The translations under genes were made by a program, and so were the position numbers. From IMG/VR virus record IMGVR_UViG_3300030389_000748, positions 1-26,630 of that record: a stretch of 26,630 bases of DNA; one strand, written 5' to 3'. The notes under the pieces were generated by a model. That model was not told the DNA's origin. It was given only the letters and a program-made list of their open reading frames with translations, and ran no database searches. Shown here in pieces: positions 476 to 26,630 of the stretch (the stretch's first letter is position 1; each line of letters starts with the position of its first letter). Origin of the DNA: a virus.

Positions 476-506
476 AAAAAAAAAGGGATGGTGATTAAAC
501 CACCCC
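476..506 (-). terminator. Rho-independent terminator after the major capsid gene
   Basis: On the minus strand the 8-bp stem GGGGTGGT/ACCATCCC (506-499 with 492-485, one G-T pair) closes a 6-base loop and is followed by nine T (484-476). It lies 12 bases past the capsid stop codon. It probably ends or attenuates the heavy capsid transcript before the tail tube gene. Confidence 0.85.
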
Positions 507-517
507 TTAATAAAATT

Positions 518-1442: not shown

Positions 1443-2060
1443 TTATTTTTTATTGTTTATAATATATGCAATTCTTTCTTTTGTTGTCATTTTTGACAAG
1501 TTTGTTTTAATTGCGTTAGTTTCGTTTGGTGTAACCTTTAAACCATCACTTGATGGTGTTTCTTCCATTTTTGAAAGTTTTGTTTCTAAATTATCAATTT
1601 TTGTTAGCATTTCGCCCATTACATCATTTGACATTTCAACGTCATCACCTTCACCAATCATTCTTTTTATGTCTGCAATTGCGTCCTCTAAGTTTTGAAT
1701 CCTTTTTTCCATTCCAGCCCAGTCATCAACATCAGCTTCTTTTCCGTCATCAACAGCAAGTTCTTCTTCAACAACTTCTTCTTCAACAACTTCTTCTTCT
1801 TCTTCACCATATCCAGCAACACGTGAATCAGCATCAATTCTGATTTTTGTTCCGTCCTCTAGTGTATAAATGCCTTCTGCAAGACTTTCAACTTCACCAG
1901 CATCATTAATAACATAGACTTCAGCACCCATGTCAAATGCGTCTGAATCTGTTGCAATGACACGTGCGTCATCAAGAATTGCCTCTGCATACATTTTTAT
2001 TTTGTATGTCTTTTTTTTACTGAACTTCAAAAGTTCTTGAATTTTTTTTATTGAACTCAT
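1443..2060 (-). CDS. Scaffold-like head assembly protein
   Basis: 205 residues from ATG 2060. It lies between the XkdF-type protease and the major capsid gene, the normal place for a scaffold. The N-terminal 80 residues form a small basic-to-neutral domain (KTYKIKMYAEAILDDARVIATD, GIYTLEDGTKIRIDADSRV). Residues about 84-103 are nearly pure acid (EEEEEVVEEEVVEEE, a tandem EEVV repeat at DNA level around 1752-1800). Residues 115-165 are a predicted coiled coil (MEKRIQNLEDAIADIKRMI, MLTKIDNLETKLSKMEE), and the C-terminus is basic (MTTKERIAYIINNKK), the usual capsid-contact signature of scaffolds. A late promoter candidate lies just upstream. The function is inferred; the N-terminal domain could also be a decoration-type or head-fibre domain. 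Confidence 0.65.
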   Translation of the reverse strand: MSSIKKIQELLKFSKKKTYKIKMYAEAILDDARVIATDSDAFDMGAEVYVINDAGEVESLAEGIYTLEDGTKIRIDADSRVAGYGEEEEEVVEEEVVEEELAVDDGKEADVDDWAGMEKRIQNLEDAIADIKRMIGEGDDVEMSNDVMGEMLTKIDNLETKLSKMEETPSSDGLKVTPNETNAIKTNLSKMTTKERIAYIINNKK

Positions 2061-2071
2061 TTTGATTTTTT

Positions 2072-2103
2072 TTTATAAATATATATTAATGTTAATTGTT
2101 TAT
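2072..2103 (-). promoter_or_regulatory. Candidate late promoter, copy 1 (before scaffold gene)
   Basis: On the minus strand ATAAACAA (2103-2096) and TATAAA (2077-2072) are separated so that AAACA and TATAAA stand exactly 19 bases apart; the second box reads ATATTTATAAAA. The same arrangement occurs at 3071-3102, 11931-11962 and 26397-26428. TATAAA ends 11 bases before ATG 2060. The upstream box overlaps the stop codon of the protease gene. Confidence 0.6.
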
Positions 2104-3059
2104 TTTCGATACTTAATTGAACCACAGACTTTTTCTGCAATTTCTTTGCTTCCATATTCTTTTATTTGGTCTTTTATACATTGATCCCAGTCATATTTTG
2201 CAAGTTCACTTTCTGAATATTTTCTTTTATATTTATTCGTTTTATAAGTGATTTTTTTCTTTCTTTTTTTCATAATTTCAGCATGAGATTTACATCCCAT
2301 ATAATAGACTTCACCATCAATTTCGTGTTTGTGACTACCTTCACAATCATAAAACAATTGACCATATAATTCAGCTTTTTCAATGTCTTTATATATTGGT
2401 GTTCCATCAAGTGTTTTGTCTGGTGACAATTCAGCATCTAACAAAATAGTTTTTATTTCGTCAAGAACTTCCATTTGTTCACATTCAATGCAGTCCTCAG
2501 CTAAGTCAAGAATGTCATGTTTTTGCATTTTTTCAATTGAATCAACAAAAAACCCTTCTATTGAATATCCTTTTATTTCACCTTTTTTTACTTGATTCCA
2601 AACGTCATCATTGTAAACCTTCATTTTCACAAACCAACTACCAACAGGAACATCAGAAAATCCGTATAAACTTGATTTGTCGTTTTTGTCCTCTTTGATC
2701 CATGTTTCAATAACAGAAACACCCTCAATGTCTTTTTCATGTTGAATAGTTGCATTGTTGTTTTTTAATCCCTTCATAAATAATTCTTGTGCTTTTTCAA
2801 TTGTTTCTTTTGAAAAATAAACAAGATATTCTTCTTGTTTTTCTTGGTCGTATCTTGGGATTTTTTTGTCTGGAATTAATGCCGTTCCGACTAGGATTCT
2901 TTTTTCTTCGTCTACTTTTGCAAGTGACAAAAAATTGTCTTTATTTAACGCAACAAAGTCACGTTGAATTGCTGGTTCTGTAACAAGTGATATTGCTTGT
3001 ATTCCATGCAATTCCTCGTCCTCATCAATCAGTAATTCTACAATTTTAGTTTTTTTCAT
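2100..3059 (-). CDS. XkdF-type putative prohead protease
   Basis: 319 residues from ATG 3059. The N-terminal 180 residues follow the XkdF-like serine protease family: ISLVTEPAI near 23-31, VGTALIPDKKIPRYD at 57-71, YLVYFSKETIEKA at 78-90, NATIQHEKD with candidate catalytic H107, a VIETWI strand at 116-121, PVGSWFVKMKV and GYSIEGFF with candidate nucleophile S166. It would process head proteins during maturation. The C-terminal 100 residues carry two Cys/His segments seen in phage head proteins: CEGSHKHEIDGEVYYMGCKSH and a DWDQCIKDQ...YGSKEIAEKVCGSIK motif, possibly metal-binding. It precedes the scaffold and capsid genes. No cleavage site in the targets is obvious, so proteolysis is inferred from the family. 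Confidence 0.8.
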   Translation of the reverse strand: MKKTKIVELLIDEDEELHGIQAISLVTEPAIQRDFVALNKDNFLSLAKVDEEKRILVGTALIPDKKIPRYDQEKQEEYLVYFSKETIEKAQELFMKGLKNNNATIQHEKDIEGVSVIETWIKEDKNDKSSLYGFSDVPVGSWFVKMKVYNDDVWNQVKKGEIKGYSIEGFFVDSIEKMQKHDILDLAEDCIECEQMEVLDEIKTILLDAELSPDKTLDGTPIYKDIEKAELYGQLFYDCEGSHKHEIDGEVYYMGCKSHAEIMKKRKKKITYKTNKYKRKYSESELAKYDWDQCIKDQIKEYGSKEIAEKVCGSIKYRK

Positions 3060-8539: not shown

Positions 8540-10035
8540 TAGCTATTTGAATTTAATTCATTTGAATACTCAATATCAAAAGTGTATTGTATAAGCAACT
8601 TGTCTTTTTCAATTGTTTTTCTTTCAAAACTTTTGTTTGTTACAACAACCGATTGTTGTTGTCCTGTCAAGATAATCACATTATTTGATTTAAACAAAGA
8701 TTCTAAAAATTGACTTTCTTCTTCTAAAATATATTGCGTTTGCAACCTTGATTTCAATTTTGGTTTTGTGTATAGTGTCCTTGTTCCACCTTGCCAGTTG
8801 TAATAAGCATATTTTGTCCCTGTGTCTAGTGATGGTGTTCCTAGCAATTGACCATAATTCATGCGTTCTGTTTCAATTGTTTCTGTTTGACCAGCATTAA
8901 AATTGTAGTAATCCCACGCACCCAGACTGTTTGTCCACGCAAGTCTAATAATTGGAATATCTTTACAATTAACAGTTGAATCAAATTGTCTCACAAAATA
9001 ATATATTTTGCTTTTTCTAGTTGCACCAGCGTCATCACTTGACAAATAAATTGTGTAATATGAATAATTGGTGTAAACTGGTTGTGCTGGTTGACCATCA
9101 AACACAGCCGTTGCAACACCATTTTTGAAACACGCCCCAGCATATCCGTTTAAATTTGCAGAACCACAGCCACCATAAATGATATATTCGTCATCACTGT
9201 TTGCACTTGATGGAGGTTCACCACCTTGTGTTGATGCGTTTTCAAATGTGTATGTGTTGCCAATTTGACCACCATTTGAACCATAATATTTTAAACACAT
9301 ATAGTTTCCTTCACTGTTGTATGCGTTTTTATTAATAAATGAAATTGTGTGTTCATCATTGTTTTTTGTAATATAATTAATTTCACCAGACAATAAAGAA
9401 CCACCTCCAATTGCTTTATTTAATTTTCTTAAGTCGTCAAAAGATGTGTTGTTGTCTGTTAACAAACTTGACGTTAATCCATTAATTACAAAACCATTGT
9501 CAAGTGGATTTGTAAATGAATTAAAAAGATTAAAAGTTGCCCTTGTTGTTTCAAATGAGATTTGAACATATCCTGTTGTTTCTTCAATTGGTGCTGTTGT
9601 TGACGATGTTGCTTTTTCGTAAGTTGCTTTTATGACTATTGTTTGAACTTGTTCATAGTTTTTACTAAATATTTTAGAAGTGTTATTTATACCAAGTCCA
9701 TGAATTGATTCAGTTGTGTCATCAGCATCAAAAAATGTTGATTGCAATTGTGTGTTGACAATTCCTTTAATATCAAACAGAGCAACAGAATTTGTTGTTG
9801 TTGACGCATTGTTTGGTCTTTGTTTTAATGTTGCCAATAAATTTGAACTTGAAACACTATCTTTATAAACACGCAATATCACTTTGTATTTAAAAAAGCC
9901 AGATATGTCATCAGTTAATTGCACTGATACTGGTGCTATAGGTTGCCAATTTATTGGAATCATTTGGTCATAAATAGATGTTCCAGTGTATGTTGTTGAT
10001 GCGTTTGTTGGTATTTGTATTATTTGTAATCCCAT
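8539..10035 (-). CDS. Distal tail/tail-tip structural protein
   Basis: 498 residues from ATG 10035, 3 bases after the stop of the gp10-like gene. The N-terminal 180 residues look like a beta domain (INWQPIAPVSVQLTDD, FFKYKVILRVYKDS). The centre is Gly/Asn/Ser-rich (residues 260-320; several Cys in GGCGSANLNGYAGACF). Residues 355-395 hold the conserved-looking segment PIIRLAWTNSLGAWDYYNF, followed by QTETIETERMNYGQLL; this pair recurs in tail proteins of Bacteroidetes phages of unknown exact role. It is transcribed directly before the 983-residue hub-like protein and is probably its neighbour in the tail tip. Confidence 0.7.
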   Translation of the reverse strand: MGLQIIQIPTNASTTYTGTSIYDQMIPINWQPIAPVSVQLTDDISGFFKYKVILRVYKDSVSSSNLLATLKQRPNNASTTTNSVALFDIKGIVNTQLQSTFFDADDTTESIHGLGINNTSKIFSKNYEQVQTIVIKATYEKATSSTTAPIEETTGYVQISFETTRATFNLFNSFTNPLDNGFVINGLTSSLLTDNNTSFDDLRKLNKAIGGGSLLSGEINYITKNNDEHTISFINKNAYNSEGNYMCLKYYGSNGGQIGNTYTFENASTQGGEPPSSANSDDEYIIYGGCGSANLNGYAGACFKNGVATAVFDGQPAQPVYTNYSYYTIYLSSDDAGATRKSKIYYFVRQFDSTVNCKDIPIIRLAWTNSLGAWDYYNFNAGQTETIETERMNYGQLLGTPSLDTGTKYAYYNWQGGTRTLYTKPKLKSRLQTQYILEEESQFLESLFKSNNVIILTGQQQSVVVTNKSFERKTIEKDKLLIQYTFDIEYSNELNSNS

Positions 10036-11132: not shown

Positions 11133-11928
11133 TACGCTATTTGATTTGGATTCATTTGTTGTTTGTCAAGAATAAATTTGTCTTGCTTATAAGACAAAAA
11201 TGTTAATGATTCGTAAAGTTTTAATTCAGTCACTTTTTCCATATTTAAAATGTTTCCATTTGCTAGTTCATATAAAATTGGATACCATCCCCATTTATCT
11301 TGATATCTTTTTTCAGTTGTGATTCTACGTTCATTTGGTTTTCCTTGATTTTGAACTGATTCAGTTCCTCCAAATAATTGTGAAAATCTGTTGAAAGTCG
11401 TTCGCCTAAATGAAAAAAAAAATTTAAAACCCCCAGAACATTGCTCATTGGAAACATCAAAAAGTCATGTTGTTTTTCTGGTGTTGGTTTGTATGGTTCA
11501 ACCTCATATCTTTCAAACCTGTCAACATCACCAATTAATGGTCTATATAATACACACATAATTTTGTGTAAATTATTTATTACATTATCGGCACAATATG
11601 TTTCTAAGTCTATAAATTCACCAGTTGTCATTTCACTCATGTTTGGAATTAATCCGTATTTTTTATTATTAAACAAAACTTGTTTTTCAATTTTGTCATC
11701 TGTGTTTTCAGTGTCAACCATTTTAACAATAATGTCATAAATCTTTTTTAAATCTTTTAATGCCATTTGTTTAACAACTTTTGTTTCTATATTACAAAAG
11801 ATTGAAACACCTTCAATCATTTTTTTTTGTTCACTCTTTTTTGATTCAATCAACGTCATAAATTGTTGATATTGTTTTATGGTGACATCTTTCCAGCTAT
11901 CTGGAACTATAACTTTTAATCTTTCCAT
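11132..11928 (-). CDS. Tail assembly chaperone, long form made by -1 frameshift
   Basis: The first 172 codons are read in the frame of ATG 11928. At a run of ten T (11413-11422) the ribosome or polymerase slips by -1 and reading continues without a stop for 93 codons (SFRRTTFNRFSQLFGG...) to TAA 11132-11134, giving 265 residues. The extra part contains DKWGWYPILYELANGNI and KLYESLTFLSYKQDKF, coherent protein sequence with a conserved-looking W-G-W-Y-P motif. Short and long forms from one start are the hallmark of tail chaperones such as lambda gpG/gpGT, which hold the tape measure during assembly. The TAA overlaps the ATG of the next gene, which supports the long frame being real. Whether slippage is translational or transcriptional cannot be told here. 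Confidence 0.75.
11263..11928 (-). CDS. Tail assembly chaperone, short form
   Basis: 221 residues from ATG 11928, with a late promoter candidate directly in front. Helical protein with the opening PDSWKDVTIKQYQQFMTL, a central SIFCNIETKVVKQMALKDLKKIYDII and TTGEFIDLETYC, and FPMSNVLGVLNFFFHLGERL just at the slip site. This series of segments is common in tail chaperone candidates of Bacteroidetes phages. After the slip site the unshifted frame gives only 49 lysine/glutamine-rich residues (to FYMN), probably a less structured tail. It follows the large terminase and precedes the tail genes, but is not next to the tape measure, which lies about 6.5 kb downstream. Confidence 0.75.
   Translation of the reverse strand: MERLKVIVPDSWKDVTIKQYQQFMTLIESKKSEQKKMIEGVSIFCNIETKVVKQMALKDLKKIYDIIVKMVDTENTDDKIEKQVLFNNKKYGLIPNMSEMTTGEFIDLETYCADNVINNLHKIMCVLYRPLIGDVDRFERYEVEPYKPTPEKQHDFLMFPMSNVLGVLNFFFHLGERLSTDFHNYLEELNQFKIKENQMNVESQLKKDIKINGDGIQFYMN
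11413..11422 (-). other. Slippery run T10 for -1 frameshift
   Basis: On the minus strand the sequence reads AAA followed by ten T and CATTTAGG. In the entry frame the codons are AAT TTT TTT TTT CAT; a -1 slip re-reads as TTT TTT TTT TCA. Downstream, the shifted frame stays open to 11132. I did not find a strong pseudoknot by eye just after it. Confidence 0.75.
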
Positions 11929-11930
11929 TT

Positions 11931-11962
11931 TTTATAAATATAATTTTAATTTTTTTGTCTAA
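11931..11962 (-). promoter_or_regulatory. Candidate late promoter, copy 3 (before tail chaperone)
   Basis: TTAGACAA (11962-11955; two changes from ATAAACAA) and TATAAA (11936-11931), again with exactly 19 bases between RACA-type box and TATAAA, and the same ATATTTATAAAA second box. TATAAA ends only 2 bases before ATG 11928, so a transcript from it would be leaderless or start inside the gene; this is the copy that fits a promoter least well. The upstream box holds the TAG stop of the large terminase. Confidence 0.5.
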
Positions 11963-13134: not shown

Positions 13135-13474
13135 TTAAATCATCATATTCTTGTTCAATTTCTGGTTCAGAAATCCAAGATGGTGCGTTTGCACTCACAT
13201 TTACATTTTGATCTGGCAAACCCTCAATTCTGTCAAGGATCTCTTTTATTGCTTTTAATTTGTCATTGTTATTTGAATCATTACTGAATGCAATTTTAAT
13301 TAACATTTTTGCAATAGGTGAACCAAAGTCACCAACACCCCCAAGTGTTTGGTCATGTGTTGACAATAATTCTTTTAATACAGTTGCAACATTTCGCACA
13401 CCTTTTGGTCGCCCTCTTTTTTCTGGTTGATTTGTTGAACTGAATTGAGTTGCTTTGTTTGGAAACTTATTCAT
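13103..13474 (-). CDS. terS: Terminase small subunit-like DNA-binding protein
   Basis: 123 residues from ATG 13474. It sits immediately before the large subunit, with a 32-base overlap, and starts inside the last codon of the second methyltransferase (ATGA). The N-terminus is basic with the KRGRPKGVRN segment (19-28), a DNA-binding or hook-like stretch in small terminase-type proteins. The middle is helical (IAKMLIKIAFSNDSNNNDKLKAIKEILDRIEGLP) and the C-terminus very acidic (EPEIEQEYDDLIDDETGE), probably for contact with the large subunit. It should select phage DNA for packaging. Family assignment rests on place, size and charge pattern. Confidence 0.75.
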   Translation of the reverse strand: MNKFPNKATQFSSTNQPEKRGRPKGVRNVATVLKELLSTHDQTLGGVGDFGSPIAKMLIKIAFSNDSNNNDKLKAIKEILDRIEGLPDQNVNVSANAPSWISEPEIEQEYDDLIDDETGETIL

Positions 13475-14208
13475 AATAAATTATTTATTCTTTGTTCAGC
13501 TATTTTAAAATAGTTTTTATCTAATTCAATACCTATAAAATCTCTGTTTAAATTGCAACATGCAACCCCTGTTGTGCCACTACCCATTGTAAAATCTAAT
13601 ACAGTTTCTAATTCGTTTGTATATGTTTTAATAAGATATTCCATTAATGCAACAGGTTTTTGTGTTGGATGCACTCTATTCAAACCATTACATTCTTTTT
13701 TATCTTTATGATAGTTCAAAATTGATGTCGGAAATTTATCTTTGTAAATTCTTCTTGGTTTTTCTTTGCTATCGAAATTTCCATTTTCACTATGTATTGT
13801 TTTAAAATTCCAATTACTACTGTCTAATATTTTTTTTCTTGGCGTTTTAATTGGATAGTAATTATGTCTTTTATTAGCAAAAATAGATATTATTTCGTGT
13901 TGCTTCATTGGTCTATATTTCACACTACTGGCACCAACACCACGTTCCTTGTTCCATATCCAATCATATTTGTAGTTTTTTATATTTGACATTCTCAAAT
14001 GACTTGAAAATGGTTCTGAACCAAATAAAACAATAGCACCATTTGGTTTTATTATTCTATTTAATTGTTTCCACATTAAATCAAAAGGTATAATACTATC
14101 CCATTTACAAGCTGTTGTTCCATAAGGCGGATCAGTAATAATTGCATCAACACTTTTATCTTTAATTGACTTCATTATTTCTAAACAATCACCATTGTAT
14201 AATTGCAT
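13471..14208 (-). CDS. DNA methyltransferase (beta class, DPPY)
   Basis: 245 residues from ATG 14208. Transfers a methyl group from S-adenosylmethionine to adenine N6 or cytosine N4 in DNA. Catalytic motif DPPY at 26-29 comes before the SAM-binding motif FTMGSGTTG at 206-214, the beta-class order. Other family marks are NGDCLEIMKSI at 5-15, the HPTQKPVALMEYLI block at 180-193 and FIGIELD at 224-230. It lacks a separate target-recognition domain, so the target is short or set by the region 90-170. No restriction enzyme gene is beside it; it could protect phage DNA from host restriction or mark it for packaging. The stop overlaps the start of the small terminase gene. Confidence 0.9.
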   Translation of the reverse strand: MQLYNGDCLEIMKSIKDKSVDAIITDPPYGTTACKWDSIIPFDLMWKQLNRIIKPNGAIVLFGSEPFSSHLRMSNIKNYKYDWIWNKERGVGASSVKYRPMKQHEIISIFANKRHNYYPIKTPRKKILDSSNWNFKTIHSENGNFDSKEKPRRIYKDKFPTSILNYHKDKKECNGLNRVHPTQKPVALMEYLIKTYTNELETVLDFTMGSGTTGVACCNLNRDFIGIELDKNYFKIAEQRINNLL

Positions 14209-14241
14209 ATCATTCCGTTTTTATACCGATTTATTAATCTA

Positions 14242-15693
14242 TTATAATTTAGTTGCCTTTTGTCCTGTAAACTGTTCCCATCTTTCTATAATTACATCAC
14301 AGTATTTAGTATCTAATTCCATGCCATAACAAACTCTATTTGTTTTTTCACAAGCTATTAATGTTGAACCACTACCAAGAAATGGTTCTATTACTTTTTT
14401 CTTGCTACTTGTTTTTATTATTCGTTCCATCATTTCTACTGGTTTTGGTGTAGCGTGGTTGTGTCTTTCTTTCCCTTTTACTCTTTCATAGTTCCAAACA
14501 TCAGTCATATTATCGTGTGTATTATTAAAGTATGTTCTCGTATCATAAAACGCTTTTTTTAATTCTTCGTATTCTTTTTTTAATTCTTTATATTCTTTTT
14601 TGAAAGCATTTATATTGTTTTCTTTACAATAATTTTTCCAAGAATTATATACTTCTTTTGTGGGCATTCCCCATTGTGATTTATCAAACCAATGGCAACC
14701 ACTATTTTCACTATGTCCTGCAATTTTTTTAAACTCTTTAATTGTTAATTTAGATTTGTTTTTTTCTTCTTTTAAATAATTAACCATAAAATCCCACCCT
14801 TCCCAATAATTATCTGCATTATTATTAAATCCTTGTTCACCTATCATAAAAAACAAACACCTTTCTGATACTGTTGGATACATTCTGTGTTGTTCGCTTG
14901 ACATACCCATTCCGTGTCCTTTATTCCAAACTATCTCATTTCTAAAAGTTAAGCGTTCTGTGTCTTTTAATAGTGAATACCACAAACGCCACAAGTCCTC
15001 AGCATTGCCCCAAATATAACAAGAACCATTATCATCTAAATAAGGTCTAAATGTTTTAAACCATTCTAATTGGAAAGTGTCTAATTTCTGTTTATATAGG
15101 TTATCATTTAATACGCCATCTTTTTCTTTGCCCATTCCATAAGGGGGATCAGCGTGTAATAATTCTGCTTTATCTCCATTCATTAACTTTTCAACATCAC
15201 TTTCTTTTGTGCTATCTCCACACATTAATCTGTGCTTTCCTAGTTGCCAAACATCACCAAGTTTTACTCTGCTTTCTTTTACTTCTGGAATATGGTCATC
15301 TTCTGTGTTGCCCTCTGTAATTTTATCAATATTAATATCAAGGTCAATATGCTTAAAACCCCAGTCAACAAGTTCATCAATGTCAAAATGGTTTGCAAGT
15401 AAATCAAAATCAAACTCACCACCAGATTTGTTTAATCTAATATTCAATTCTTTTTCTTGTTTTTTGTTTAATTCTAATACCACACAAGGAATGTTTTCTG
15501 TTTCCATTTCTTGCAACACTTTAAATCTTTGATGTCCACCGATAATTGTTCCATCAAAATTTATTATTATTGGATCAACAAGACCAAAATTTTCAATTGA
15601 TTTTTTAAGGTCATTATATTGTTTAGTTGAAATTTGTCTTGGATTATATTCAGAAGGTTTTAAATCCTTTGCTTTTTTATTAGTTATTTTCAT
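14242..15693 (-). CDS. ParB-like domain fused to DNA methyltransferase
   Basis: 483 residues from ATG 15693, overlapping the HNH gene by ATGA. Residues 1-105 form a ParB/sulfiredoxin-type domain (LKPSEYNPRQ, SIENFGLVDPIIIN, GGHQR at 52-56). From about 142 a beta-class DNA methyltransferase follows: LGKHRLMCGDS at 151-161, catalytic DPPYG at 182-186, HATPKPVEMMERII at 413-426 and SAM motif EPFLGSGST at 436-444. A 60-residue stretch near 300-385 is lysine-rich, with a near-exact tandem repeat KEYKELKKEYEELKK, which probably is a flexible arm. Such fusions are common in phages and prophages; the ParB part may act as a nuclease or nucleotide-binding clamp. With its neighbour it gives this small phage two methyltransferases. 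Confidence 0.9.
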   Translation of the reverse strand: MKITNKKAKDLKPSEYNPRQISTKQYNDLKKSIENFGLVDPIIINFDGTIIGGHQRFKVLQEMETENIPCVVLELNKKQEKELNIRLNKSGGEFDFDLLANHFDIDELVDWGFKHIDLDINIDKITEGNTEDDHIPEVKESRVKLGDVWQLGKHRLMCGDSTKESDVEKLMNGDKAELLHADPPYGMGKEKDGVLNDNLYKQKLDTFQLEWFKTFRPYLDDNGSCYIWGNAEDLWRLWYSLLKDTERLTFRNEIVWNKGHGMGMSSEQHRMYPTVSERCLFFMIGEQGFNNNADNYWEGWDFMVNYLKEEKNKSKLTIKEFKKIAGHSENSGCHWFDKSQWGMPTKEVYNSWKNYCKENNINAFKKEYKELKKEYEELKKAFYDTRTYFNNTHDNMTDVWNYERVKGKERHNHATPKPVEMMERIIKTSSKKKVIEPFLGSGSTLIACEKTNRVCYGMELDTKYCDVIIERWEQFTGQKATKL

Positions 15694-16486: not shown

Positions 16487-16566
16487 ATTGCAAATGTAAA
16501 TCCAATTATTAATAAAATTAAAATTGTTGTCACAATTATTGTTTCAATTATTTCTTCATAATTCAT
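16483..16566 (-). CDS. Tiny membrane protein, 27 aa
   Basis: ATG 16566 to TGA 16483 gives MNYEEIIETIIVTTILILLIIGF... with one clear transmembrane helix (residues about 7-26). The start overlaps the end of the sigma-like gene and the stop overlaps the next ATG (ATGA), so the 70 bases between the two larger genes are fully used. Such tight overlap on both sides is the main evidence. Function unknown; single-pass membrane peptides in phages can affect superinfection or membrane potential. Confidence 0.6.
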   Translation of the reverse strand: MNYEEIIETIIVTTILILLIIGFTFAI

Positions 16567-17116
16567 TTTTAAAATATTTTTTTACTTTTTTAATCGATGC
16601 GTAAAGTGTGTTTCTATTTATTCCAGTGTCTTTTGACATTTTGTTTAATGAATAATTTTTTCCCATTTGGTGATATATTCTAAAAACTTCACTGTCAAAC
16701 CAGTGTATTTCTTTTAATTTTTTGTTTATTCTTTCAATGTCTTTTTCTAATTGCTTTTTTTTATTAACACCATCGTCATCTAACATCCTGTGAATCCTGT
16801 CTGATGTGCTGTTAATATATTCAACATTCCAACAATTCAAAACAAATCTTTCGTCTTTGTCTCTATAATATTTTCTATATTTTTTATAAAATGGTGACGT
16901 TTTAGAATGGTATTGATTTATCATAATTCTTGCAATCCAGTATAAAAGTTGATTATTTTCAATTAGTTTTTTAATTTTTTCTTTGTCACTATCATACAAA
17001 GCCAGTATAGTGTCATGAAGCAAGTCATCACTGTCATATTTTTCACTTGTTATTTTTTTTGATATATCTTTTAACTTTTTATAGTTTTTAGTAATATATT
17101 CGTTTAATTCAAACAT
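16556..17116 (-). CDS. Sigma-factor-like protein
   Basis: 186 residues from ATG 17116 (MFELNEYITKNYKKL); a TTG 33 bases further upstream would only add a tail that overlaps the previous gene. Residues 25-85 resemble sigma-70 region 2: SDDLLHDTILALYD, then LLYWIARIMINQYHSKTSPFYKKYRK, which matches the helix that meets the -10 element. Residues 147-186 form a helix-turn-helix like region 4 (YSLNKMSKDTGINRNTLYASIKKVKKYF), the -35-binding part. The two are joined by a charged linker. It probably redirects host RNA polymerase to phage promoters, and the bipartite element found before late genes is a candidate target. Region 2 is divergent, so a different DNA-binding role is possible. Confidence 0.65.
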   Translation of the reverse strand: MFELNEYITKNYKKLKDISKKITSEKYDSDDLLHDTILALYDSDKEKIKKLIENNQLLYWIARIMINQYHSKTSPFYKKYRKYYRDKDERFVLNCWNVEYINSTSDRIHRMLDDDGVNKKKQLEKDIERINKKLKEIHWFDSEVFRIYHQMGKNYSLNKMSKDTGINRNTLYASIKKVKKYFKNEL

Positions 17117-17394
17117 TTGTAAATTGTAGGAACACCAGCCAACAAACAAAGATTATATTCACTCATTGACAATGTGTCAATTTCTATATCAAAGATGTTG
17201 TTTTGATTCTTTATTTTTTTATAAATATAATCAATTGTGTCTTTGTTTTTTTTTACGTTTTTAAATATATAATTTTTTTCAATTAGCTTTTTATCAACTA
17301 AATACATAATTTTAAACAAATGATTGTTAATATCTGTATATTCCCAGAATGTGCCTTGATTCCTTGTGTTTCTAAATGTTGGTTTTAATTTCAT
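17104..17394 (-). CDS. Hypothetical early protein, 96 aa
   Basis: ATG 17394 (MKLKPTFRNTRNQGTFWEYTDINNHLF). Residues 1-45 look like a beta fold; residues 46-70 are strongly charged helix (KNVKKNKDTIDYIYKKIKNQNN); the last part, TLSMSEYNLCLLAGVPTIYKCLN, has a helix-turn shape. It overlaps the start of the sigma-like gene by 13 bases, which suggests translation coupling. No family recognised. A sequence similar to the late promoter element lies inside it (17218-17249). Confidence 0.6.
   Translation of the reverse strand: MKLKPTFRNTRNQGTFWEYTDINNHLFKIMYLVDKKLIEKNYIFKNVKKNKDTIDYIYKKIKNQNNIFDIEIDTLSMSEYNLCLLAGVPTIYKCLN
17218..17249 (-). promoter_or_regulatory. Possible promoter-like element inside a gene, before the sigma-like gene
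   Basis: Minus-strand TATAAA (17223-17218) within ATATTTATAAAAAA, with AAACA at 17248-17244 one base further (20 rather than 19) than in the late copies. It lies about 102 bases before the sigma-like start and could drive its own gene, but in AT-rich coding DNA chance matches are likely. Confidence 0.25.
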
Positions 17395-19459: not shown

Positions 19460-19675
19460 TTAGTTTTTAATTAATAATTCTTTTACTGACACTTTCAAAA
19501 CAACACACATTCTTTTAAATTGATTTAGTGTCATTGAATGTGGTTCGTTTACTTGTTTTATTATTGTTGGATAAGATACATTCAACTTTTTAGAAAGTTG
19601 CATTTTGTTAAAATTATTTTTTAACATTTCAATTTTAATATCTTTTGATAATTCTTTATTGTTTTTGATAGTCAT
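19460..19675 (-). CDS. HTH (XRE-like) regulator, 71 aa
   Basis: ATG 19675. Residues 22-66 form a helix-turn-helix of the Cro/C1 type: NKMQLSKKLNVSYPTIIKQVN, then MTLNQFKRMCVVLKVSVKELL. The N-terminal helix is short and no dimerisation domain follows, so it is Cro-sized. It is the only repressor-like gene in the window and could act on the inverted repeat upstream of the initiator. It overlaps the preceding gene by 20 bases. Confidence 0.75.
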   Translation of the reverse strand: MTIKNNKELSKDIKIEMLKNNFNKMQLSKKLNVSYPTIIKQVNEPHSMTLNQFKRMCVVLKVSVKELLIKN

Positions 19676-20870: not shown

Positions 20871-21596
20871 TTATAAATTCATTAACAAATTTAATGGAAT
20901 TTTTCCATTTAACAAAACAGCACATCCAATGACTGGTTTTTTGCCATATTTAGCATATGCGAAGCTGTATTCTGAAAAATCAATTCCTGTTCCAACTTGA
21001 CACCCAAACACTCTAAAATTTTGACCAACAAAATGTTCTGTGTAACATTGTGTGTGATAGTGTCCAGATACAGTGTTCATCATGTCGTCTTTTGCTTTTT
21101 TTCTAGCGTTGCCACCTTCACCATGACAATATTGAACACCATCTTGAACATATCTCTCAACAAAATCCCAGTTTGGAACATTTAAAACTTCTTTATATGA
21201 TTTAATCCATTTACTAGGTATTGCAGATGTTTGTGCTTTACGCATAATTATTCTGTCATGGTTGCCGATTATGACTTTTGTTCCTTTTTTATTAAAATAT
21301 TCGTAATATCTTGCAATCCTTTTAATTGCATAATCAAGTTCATCAGCACCACCAAGACCATCAGCAGATGTCTCATGATAACTTGAATAGTGATTGTCTA
21401 TGATGTCACCAATGAAAATTGTTTGACTACAATTCCAGTATTCGTATTGCTCAATTAACCAGTCTCTGTATGAATCAAGATCAAATGGACAATGGAGGTC
21501 GCCCACCACTAAGACGTTGCGTGAATTTTTTTGTCTATGACTTTTTATATAGTCATGTTCTGTTTTTGTAAGTCTTAACCTGTGGTCTTTTTTCAT
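20871..21596 (-). CDS. Calcineurin-like metallophosphoesterase
   Basis: 241 residues from ATG 21596, overlapping the upstream membrane gene by ATGA. All the metal-binding motifs are present in order: VGDLHCP at 31-37, GDIIDNHYSSYH at 63-74, GNHDR at 111-115, a His at CHGEGG (158) and GHYHTQ at 178-183. It binds two metal ions and hydrolyses phosphoester bonds; the substrate may be DNA, RNA or a nucleotide. The first 25 residues are basic (KKDHRLRLTKTEHDYIKSHRQKN), perhaps for nucleic acid contact. Its place right behind the lysis genes is unusual; DNA metabolism or destroying a defence signal nucleotide are both possible. Confidence 0.9.
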   Translation of the reverse strand: MKKDHRLRLTKTEHDYIKSHRQKNSRNVLVVGDLHCPFDLDSYRDWLIEQYEYWNCSQTIFIGDIIDNHYSSYHETSADGLGGADELDYAIKRIARYYEYFNKKGTKVIIGNHDRIIMRKAQTSAIPSKWIKSYKEVLNVPNWDFVERYVQDGVQYCHGEGGNARKKAKDDMMNTVSGHYHTQCYTEHFVGQNFRVFGCQVGTGIDFSEYSFAYAKYGKKPVIGCAVLLNGKIPLNLLMNL

Positions 21597-25780: not shown

Positions 25781-26242
25781 TTAATTTGTTACGTAAACAG
25801 GTGAACTCTGTGTTGTTGTGTATTCTGTGTAAGTTGTTCCAAGATTGTCTGAATTTGTTAAATAAGCAATTCCGTCAAACACCTGTTTCACAACAGATGA
25901 ATCATTTGGATCAAGATTTGATGATGATGACTGTTGCCAAATTTTAACATTATAGAATCCATAAGGATAGTTTGATTCACCAAGATAAATTTGTCCCTGT
26001 GTTAATGATTCAAAACCATCTGTTACAAATATAAATATATATACATATCTGTCTCTGTTTCCATATACAACATTTGGCAAACCAGCCGAAATAAAATATT
26101 TCTTTTTGTTTGTTTGTTGATTTTCTAACATAATTAACGGATTGTAACTGTCTGAAAAAACAGACTTGTCATATTCATCAAATAAGTTTAAATATATTTG
26201 GTTAATACCTGAACCTGTGTTTGGTCTATTCAGTTGAATCAT
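25781..26242 (-). CDS. Conserved neck/structural protein
   Basis: 153 residues from ATG 26242 (MIQLNRPNTGSGINQIYLNLFDEYD). An in-frame ATG at 26284 would add 14 residues that lie inside the small upstream gene; the later start matches the usual opening of this family. Short beta-sandwich-like protein: YVYIFIFVTDGFESLTQGQIYLGESNYPYGFYNVKIWQQSSSSNLDPND, with the LxxG.Y.Y.VYxQxSxxNLDP segment that recurs next to portal genes in Bacteroidetes phages. Its ending VYVTN is common too. It lies 2 bases before the portal and is probably a small head or tail decoration or adaptor; function not known. Confidence 0.7.
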   Translation of the reverse strand: MIQLNRPNTGSGINQIYLNLFDEYDKSVFSDSYNPLIMLENQQTNKKKYFISAGLPNVVYGNRDRYVYIFIFVTDGFESLTQGQIYLGESNYPYGFYNVKIWQQSSSSNLDPNDSSVVKQVFDGIAYLTNSDNLGTTYTEYTTTQSSPVYVTN

Positions 26243-26387
26243 TTTTCTTTTTTTTAGTTTGTTTTTCAAACCACTTGTCACCATGTCTTTCCTTTACACC
26301 TTCTAATTGATTTTGATTCATTTCACCAAGTGTTAAATTATAACGTGAAACTCTTGTATTTAAATGTTCTTTTTTAACAGTAATCAT
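26226..26387 (-). CDS. Small head-region protein, 53 aa
   Basis: ATG 26387 to TAG 26226: MITVKKEHLNTRVSRYNLTL, GEMNQNQLEGVKERHGDKWF and a lysine-rich end. The Lx.R...LTL..M.Q.QLE.....G..WF pattern matches small proteins of about 50 residues seen beside portal and tail genes in flavobacterial phages. It is the first gene behind a terminator and a late promoter candidate, and its end overlaps the next gene start by 17 bases. Role unknown. Confidence 0.7.
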   Translation of the reverse strand: MITVKKEHLNTRVSRYNLTLGEMNQNQLEGVKERHGDKWFEKQTKKKKNDSTE

Positions 26388-26396
26388 AAGTTCTTT

Positions 26397-26428
26397 TTTA
26401 TAAATATAAATATATTAAAATTGTTTAT
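26397..26428 (-). promoter_or_regulatory. Candidate late promoter, copy 4 (behind a terminator)
   Basis: ATAAACAA (26428-26421) and TATAAA (26402-26397), 19 bases between AAACA and TATAAA, same as the other copies, and 9 bases before ATG 26387. It lies directly downstream of a rho-independent terminator, so transcription must restart here; this is the best evidence that the element is a promoter. Confidence 0.7.
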
Positions 26429-26456
26429 AAAAAAAAGGCAACCATAATTGATTGCC
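26429..26456 (-). terminator. Rho-independent terminator after the tail tube gene
   Basis: Minus-strand stem GGCAATC/GGTTGCC (26456-26450 with 26443-26437; one T-G pair) with a 6-base loop and an eight-T run (26436-26429). It follows the tail tube stop codon by about 30 bases. Confidence 0.85.
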
Positions 26457-26486
26457 CTTTTAAAAACAGAGATAAACTATATTTTT

Positions 26487-26630
26487 TTAAGATGGATATG
26501 TTCCAGTTGTAATTGTTACGTTTGCATCAGTTGTAACACCATCAAACGGATATTTTGCAGTTCCAACACCAGCTGTTGGTTTAAATATGAAATTTTCTTG
26601 TTCTTGACCTGTAAATGTCAATGTGAATCC
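26487..26630 (-). CDS. Major tail tube protein, C-terminal part (cut by window edge)
   Basis: Open frame entering from the right edge with 47 residues, GFTLTFTGQEQENFIFKPTA...TITTGTYPS, and stop TAA 26487-26489. It has no start inside the window. The GFTLTFTGQEQENF strand is what normally follows a KGDL(S) turn in tail tube proteins, and KGDL is where the other fragment at 1-454 ends. Joining the two with two extra bases (for example TCA for Ser at the seam) would give about 199 residues in one frame. The terminator just after it matches the end of a strongly expressed gene. Confidence 0.7.
   Translation of the reverse strand, partial: GFTLTFTGQEQENFIFKPTAGVGTAKYPFDGVTTDANVTITTGTYPS

Follow-up and report, generated by a model that had tools for sequence, protein, structure and literature searches.

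In Salmonella phage 7-11, early genes are transcribed with the host sigma factor, and a late sigma factor of the phage, SaPh711_gp47, serves several bipartite GTAAtg-16-aCTA promoters upstream of late genes (PMC8948821). The scheme has been proven for 7-11 and for phiEco32, with transcripts starting 6 to 9 bp from the promoter element (PMC8948821), and phiEco32 also encodes gp79, an inhibitor of the host polymerase (PMC4331800, PMC8948821). Bacteroidota phages are abundant, and no pair of phage sigma factor and late promoter was found for them in the literature searched. Here, we describe a viral record of 26,630 bases (the window, i.e., the whole stretch of DNA analyzed) that carries a repeated bipartite motif before virion genes together with a gene for a sigma-like protein. 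Its relatives point to Bacteroidota as the host phylum of what is probably a small tailed phage.

All genes of the window lie on the minus strand, its coding strand. The open reading frame (ORF) cut at position 1 (1–454) resumes at position 26630 (26484–26630) after a gap of approximately 2 nt, judging by relatives, and this continuity indicates a phage genome of approximately 26.6 kb that is circular or circularly permuted and almost completely covered by the record. Upstream of the terminase (13471–15693) lie two neighboring genes for N6/N4 DNA methyltransferases, one of which has an N-terminal domain resembling ParB.

Motif copies in the window

The motif, (A/G)(A/G)ACAA-N12-TATATTTATAA, was found four times on the coding strand, not once on the opposite strand, and in none of 400 shuffled sequences. 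Counting matches in shuffled sequence had been proposed as a check by the first-pass annotation, and the result was the same for the narrower form ARACAA-N12-TATATTTATAA, with four copies in the window against none in 400 Markov-1 shuffles of it. Even for the looser ARACA-N19-TATAAA, four matches on the coding strand and none on the other compared with a shuffle mean of 0.29 and a maximum of 2 (400 Markov-1 shuffles). The four-copy motif is real and far beyond chance. The features to which we refer below are as follows.

26398–26426, minus strand: predicted late promoter P1; AAACAA at 26421–26426, 12-nt spacer, TATATTTATAA at 26398–26408; the small gene that follows has its ATG at 26387; score, 33.4 bits; relatives carry orthologous copies
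11932–11960, minus strand: predicted late promoter P2; AGACAA and TATATTTATAA; overlaps the TerL stop, and the ATG that begins the tail gene (11928) follows after 3 nt; 35.1 bits
3072–3100, minus strand: predicted late promoter P3, upstream of the head-maturation protease gene (ATG at 3059); 36.6 bits
2073–2101, minus strand: predicted late promoter P4, upstream of the scaffold-like and capsid genes (ATG at 2060); 30.9 bits
26429–26463, minus strand: predicted intrinsic terminator ending directly at P1; T run; fold of 26418–26475 with z = -5.0; equivalent hairpins in 17 relatives
477–508, minus strand: the second strong terminator predicted on this strand, right behind the capsid gene
16556–17116, minus strand: gene for a divergent ECF-type sigma factor; 186 aa from the ATG, ORF extendable to 17149; matches to TIGR02937, the PHROG sigma family, and sigma structures
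20886–20915, minus strand: host-type promoter TTG-N19-TAAATTTG, a candidate early promoter, at the end of the phosphatase gene; it overlaps coding sequence, which makes the evidence weaker
26226–26387, minus strand: small gene under P1, leading into the portal operon
11263–11928, minus strand: tail gene under P2; PHROG 32199 and a weak tail match
2100–3059, minus strand: head-maturation protease gene under P3; Pfam Peptidase_S78_2, E = 5.3e-19
1443–2060, minus strand: scaffold-like gene under P4; the major capsid gene (518–1438) starts 4 nt later

The first box reads AAACAA in three copies and AGACAA in one, and 12 nt later TATATTTATAA follows in each. The positions first given for the four copies proved exact, all of them on the coding strand, and the 19 bases counted between AAACA/AGACA and TATAAA were correct. 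A gap of N16 between ATAAACAA and ATATTTATAAAA, on the other hand, was a miscount of a true gap of 13; when the N16 form was scanned against 2.9 million viral contigs, it returned 15 contigs, none of which was a family record that had been fetched. Nor does TATAAA hold as the conserved element. In wider relatives, the conserved core was TATA(T/C)TTAT, 13 nt after ARACA, and the bases behind it differed (AA, TA, AT, AC, or GA).

Three of the four copies overlap the stop codon of the preceding gene (TAA of the protease gene, TAA of the tape-measure gene, and TAG of TerL), and the remaining one lies directly behind a terminator, as had been noticed from the start. Two further candidates had been named. 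Before the capsid gene, which begins 4 nt after the scaffold-like gene, the weak match was not recovered, as no site reached the 9-bit weight-matrix threshold. At 17218–17249, the string is present with its 20-base type of spacing, off by one; it was rejected as a promoter, since it encodes a conserved YIYKK and synonymous changes in relatives break the motif, so that the match is a coincidence of coding.

Conservation in relatives and adjoining terminators

With the sigma-like protein (16556–17149) as query, 28 related viral loci were found; the whole records of 18 of them were read, followed later by six more, and a weight matrix was built from 36 sites. Scanned with this matrix, most of the long records among the approximately 24 related ones showed 2 to 5 sites, and every site was on the coding strand; at most real places the scores were 17 to 40 bits, compared to shuffle maxima of approximately 12. 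Their places correspond to those in the window, at the starts of four genes: the small gene in front of the portal operon, the tail gene that follows TerL, the protease gene, and the scaffold-like gene. Conservation upstream of orthologous genes, another check put forward with the original observation, was thus borne out in the long relatives read. The scaffold-gene copy was degenerate (9 to 16 bits) in several close relatives and clear in others. The spacing of the boxes and the total length were fixed in the relatives, whereas the 12-nt spacer sequence was not conserved, and the distance to the ATG varied between genes while box spacing stayed constant.

A scan of the 2.9 million viral contigs for ARACAA-N12-TATATTTATAA alone yielded at least 119 loci. 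Among the matches listed, 90 of 119 carry structural genes of the phage family of the window, a figure to be read as a proportion among those matches and not as a census. Of 92 distinct family sites among the matches listed, 91 were followed after 1 to 16 nt by an ATG that begins an ORF of 40 codons or more; by the same measure, 3 of 29 sites in other contigs were, again among the matches listed. When a single base of the motif was changed as a control, the scan found 51 loci, of which the family accounted for 4. A T-to-C variant, considered as proof of co-evolution, was present at 3/3 sites in the genome G015 and at 1/4 in G048 and was not used as evidence. Direct back-translation search for relatives of the capsid gene found none. 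In another genome (G013; L095/L096), the same promoter copy was observed at positions 10 and 28868, at both contig ends, which suggests that the contig is terminally repeated or that the genome is circular and complete.

The P1 site starts directly after the hairpin with its T run, and at the equivalent place in the 17 relatives there is also a hairpin, with differing stem sequences. Of 30 terminators predicted across 25 genomes, 16 ended no more than 30 nt before a motif site, against 0.10 expected. A stop signal with the motif immediately behind it is what a restart of transcription would look like. In G009 (L089/L090; coding positions 9328, 18106, and 21523), a strong terminator stands directly before 3/3 predicted late promoters, compared to one such junction in the window.

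The ECF-type sigma gene and a cultured relative

Along its entire length, the protein encoded at 16556–17116 matched TIGR02937, the NCBIfam model of the ECF sigma superfamily (E = 1.7e-9, 37.5 bits). We call it ECF-type only, because this score lies below the curated NCBIfam cutoff of 42.9 bits, and regard it as a divergent relative rather than a certified ECF member. TIGR02937 was matched over full length by all 18 aligned family members (best E = 4.6e-11), and the PHROG sigma family by 13 of the 18; a Pfam search of the window protein gave no significant sigma match. Its predicted structure was of middling confidence (pLDDT 73, pTM 0.51). In a Foldseek search of the PDB, the first 34 matches were sigma factors or transcription-initiation complexes, many of them ECF, each being weak (E of approximately 0.2 or higher). 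A second structural look aligned region 2 (residues 1–88) and region 4 (approximately 110–186), in this order, to RpoE, SigH, SigL, SigW, sigma-E, and others. By the predicted model and the matches above, the protein consists of these two regions alone, with a low-confidence linker (88–112) between them. A PDB sequence search with the sigma profile gave only weak matches to unrelated or HTH proteins.

The sigma gene was present in 9 of 10 motif-bearing family contigs of at least 21 kb and in 0 of 12 contigs outside the family that match by chance, although co-occurrence within one phage family cannot single out which of the family's genes reads the motif. No sigma relative was found in the phages collection at E 0.01, and none was confirmed in genome contigs, so that the search there yielded neither a prophage nor a host. 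More distant sigma-like proteins (26 to 29% identity) were noted on four contigs with a motif match (L138, L174, L218, and L137), and these may extend the family.

A cultured representative exists in Nonlabens phage P12024L, which infects a sea bacterium and shares its gene order with the window phage. Its gp35 is a sigma-region-2 protein (Pfam E = 1.4e-5; ECF-type matches in NCBIfam) located between VRR-NUC and terminase, the same slot as that of the window sigma. P12024L has no TATATTTAT sites. Instead, it carries seven AAACAA-N14/15-CGTTA(A/T) sites, all on the plus strand, before gp01 (protease), gp05, gp08, gp37, gp42, gp45, and gp46, with the ATG 7 to 8 nt after CGTT. These sites share their -35 box and geometry with the window motif and depart from it in the -10 box: the -35 box holds AAC or GAC in all groups, and a CGT -10 box occurs in the P12024L group only. 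A transcript map of F. psychrophilum assigns the CGT box to ECF sigmas (PMC9723704), which favors an ECF-type reader in P12024L; that the -10 box of the window lacks CGT counts against the reading proposed below. In a profile comparison of the two sigma families, hhalign gave a nonsignificant probability of 1%; the two proteins match by domain and position only, and common descent is not claimed. P12024L also has a late-type promoter before gp37 and terminase (L106 22058–22084), and the window group is without one before TerL; the timing of terminase expression may differ between the branches.

Late transcription, rival readings, and known systems

Conservation at orthologous gene starts, adjacency to terminators, a sequence unlike that of host promoters, and the co-traveling ECF-type sigma gene make a phage-specific late promoter, as the first-pass annotation had proposed, the best fit, and we infer that the motif is very probably a late promoter of virion genes. 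The sigma factor encoded by the phage is likely to be what reads it.

In the proposed scheme, host RNA polymerase with host sigma would transcribe the early genes from TTG-N19-TAnnTTTG promoters, and this early run would include the small sigma gene. The phage sigma would then take over the host core polymerase, with its region 4 contacting the -35 box (A/G)(A/G)ACAA and its region 2 the -10 box TATA(T/C)TTAT, and would start the virion operons at four points, while terminators before some of the promoters would halt transcription arriving from upstream. With the -10 box this near to the start codon, late leaders would be approximately 0 to 10 nt long. Applying the start distance of 6 to 9 bp known from 7-11 and phiEco32 would place the start of the tail-gene mRNA at or next to its AUG and leave the other late leaders a few nucleotides. 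A leaderless tail-gene mRNA seems moderately likely to us. That a start so near the ATG is a weak point of the copy at 11931–11962 had been conceded at the outset; the ATG does lie 3 nt past TATAA, but gene and distance alike recur in most relatives, and in P12024L the distance is 7 to 8 nt. We see the short distance as a feature, since mRNAs beginning on the AUG, or immediately ahead of it, would lead one to expect it. Leaderless or very short-leader mRNAs are a minority in Bacteroidota, which counts against the proposed leaders: 5.5% of mRNAs are leaderless in F. psychrophilum (PMC9723704), in F. johnsoniae 87% of leaders are longer than 10 nt (PMC6847099), and in B. thetaiotaomicron approximately 3.7% are below 10 nt. 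Taken as a whole, we hold late promoters used by host RNA polymerase with a phage sigma, giving virion mRNAs with very short or no leaders, to be the probable explanation.

The rival that survives best, though unlikely, is that the motif is read by a host sigma factor, either the primary one (TAnnTTTG type) or an ECF sigma, and not by a phage protein. TATATTTA is only one position off TAnnTTTG, and flavobacteria have several ECF sigmas, with a CGT -10 box in one predicted motif class (PMC9723704). Taking TATATTTA as the -7 box would put the ACAA box approximately 12 nt upstream, with no TTG at 19; the mismatch with the host consensus claimed in the first place, an A for the final G and no TTG where one belongs, is confirmed. 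Moreover, the motif is largely confined to the phage family of the window, and canonical host-type promoters occur elsewhere in the same genomes. TTG-N19-TAnnTTTG was found at the end of the phosphatase gene in approximately 10 genomes (the window and approximately 9 relatives), where it overlaps coding sequence, and such sites showed no overall enrichment on one strand. A sigma-70 consensus scan gave nothing useful in the AT-rich DNA of the window. For a T7-like polymerase (PF00940), neither the window nor four relatives gave a match, in a search in which the control genomes gave none either.

Two other roles would leave the motif outside the promoter core. An operator for a phage regulator that activates or represses a host promoter is very improbable, even though a small HTH protein is encoded at 19460–19675: the motif is asymmetric, oriented with the gene, and of sigma-like geometry, no separate host promoter was seen beside the copies, and by abutting terminators and start codons it leaves no room for another promoter before the ATG. 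Just as improbable, and if anything more so, is an RNA element, an A-rich, Kozak-like ribosome-loading signal before virion genes. The motif does adjoin start codons and is followed by A-rich sequence, and F. johnsoniae uses an A-rich upstream context (PMC6847099). A translation signal would, however, hardly consist of two invariant boxes around an unconserved 12-nt spacer, the first of which lies some 27 to 40 nt ahead of the ATG and overlaps the stop codon of the preceding gene; the motif is present at no more than four genes, terminators end directly at it, and its distance to the ATG differs by gene while the box spacing is fixed. Chance repeats in a genome of 30% G+C, in which TATAAA-like strings are common, are refuted by the shuffles, the strand bias, the orthologous positions, and the family-specific matches.

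Returning to phage-read late promoters, we give slightly less than an even chance to a fuller reading, in which this phage family of Bacteroidota would express its virion genes with a dedicated ECF-type sigma from promoters fused to start codons, and late mRNAs would be largely leaderless in a phylum where few mRNAs are. The -10 box, changed between branches (CGTTA or A(T/C)TTA) with the -35 box and geometry kept, would then form a natural series of sigma/promoter divergence. The predicted pair spans dozens of contigs, has a cultured representative in P12024L, and makes operon boundaries readable from sequence. Bacteria in which E. coli promoters fail might gain an orthogonal sigma and promoter from it, and it might serve as a model of how mRNA with a very short leader or none is translated when Shine-Dalgarno sequences are absent.

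Among known systems, the late promoter of T4, TATAAATA, is read by gp55 and resembles the window motif in being an AT-rich, -10-like box before late genes; TATAAATA itself occurs in the window on the opposite strand, and the window motif, unlike that of T4, has a conserved upstream box. Bacteroidota primary-sigma promoters (TTG-N19-TAnnTTTG) have host-type copies in the same genomes, before the early operon, but the late motif lacks their TTG at -33 and the final G of the -7 box. The bacterial ECF sigmas share the two-domain build, a -35 box holding AAC and, for P12024L, a CGT -10 box with approximately 17 nt between, comparable to sigma-W promoters. In the window group, the -10 box differs, being A(T/C)TTA and not CGTTA. 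In phiEco32, a phage sigma, gp36, likewise serves middle and late promoters (tAATGTAtA), but that promoter is a single element without a -35 box, and gp36 lacks region 4 homology (PMC4331800, PMC8948821). Closest is Salmonella phage 7-11, with a divergent phage-encoded sigma, bipartite late promoters in several copies, and host sigma for early genes, for which a candidate promoter is present here. It belongs to another phage group and host phylum, its boxes are unrelated, its scheme is experimentally proven where ours is predicted, and only in the window family is the -10 box so near the ATG that leaders of approximately 0 to 10 nt would result. The principle of a phage sigma with late promoters is known from the enterobacterial phages 7-11 and phiEco32; this sigma/promoter pair appears to be undescribed, and what seems new is the pair itself, its Bacteroidota host phylum, and the closeness of the -10 box to the start codon.
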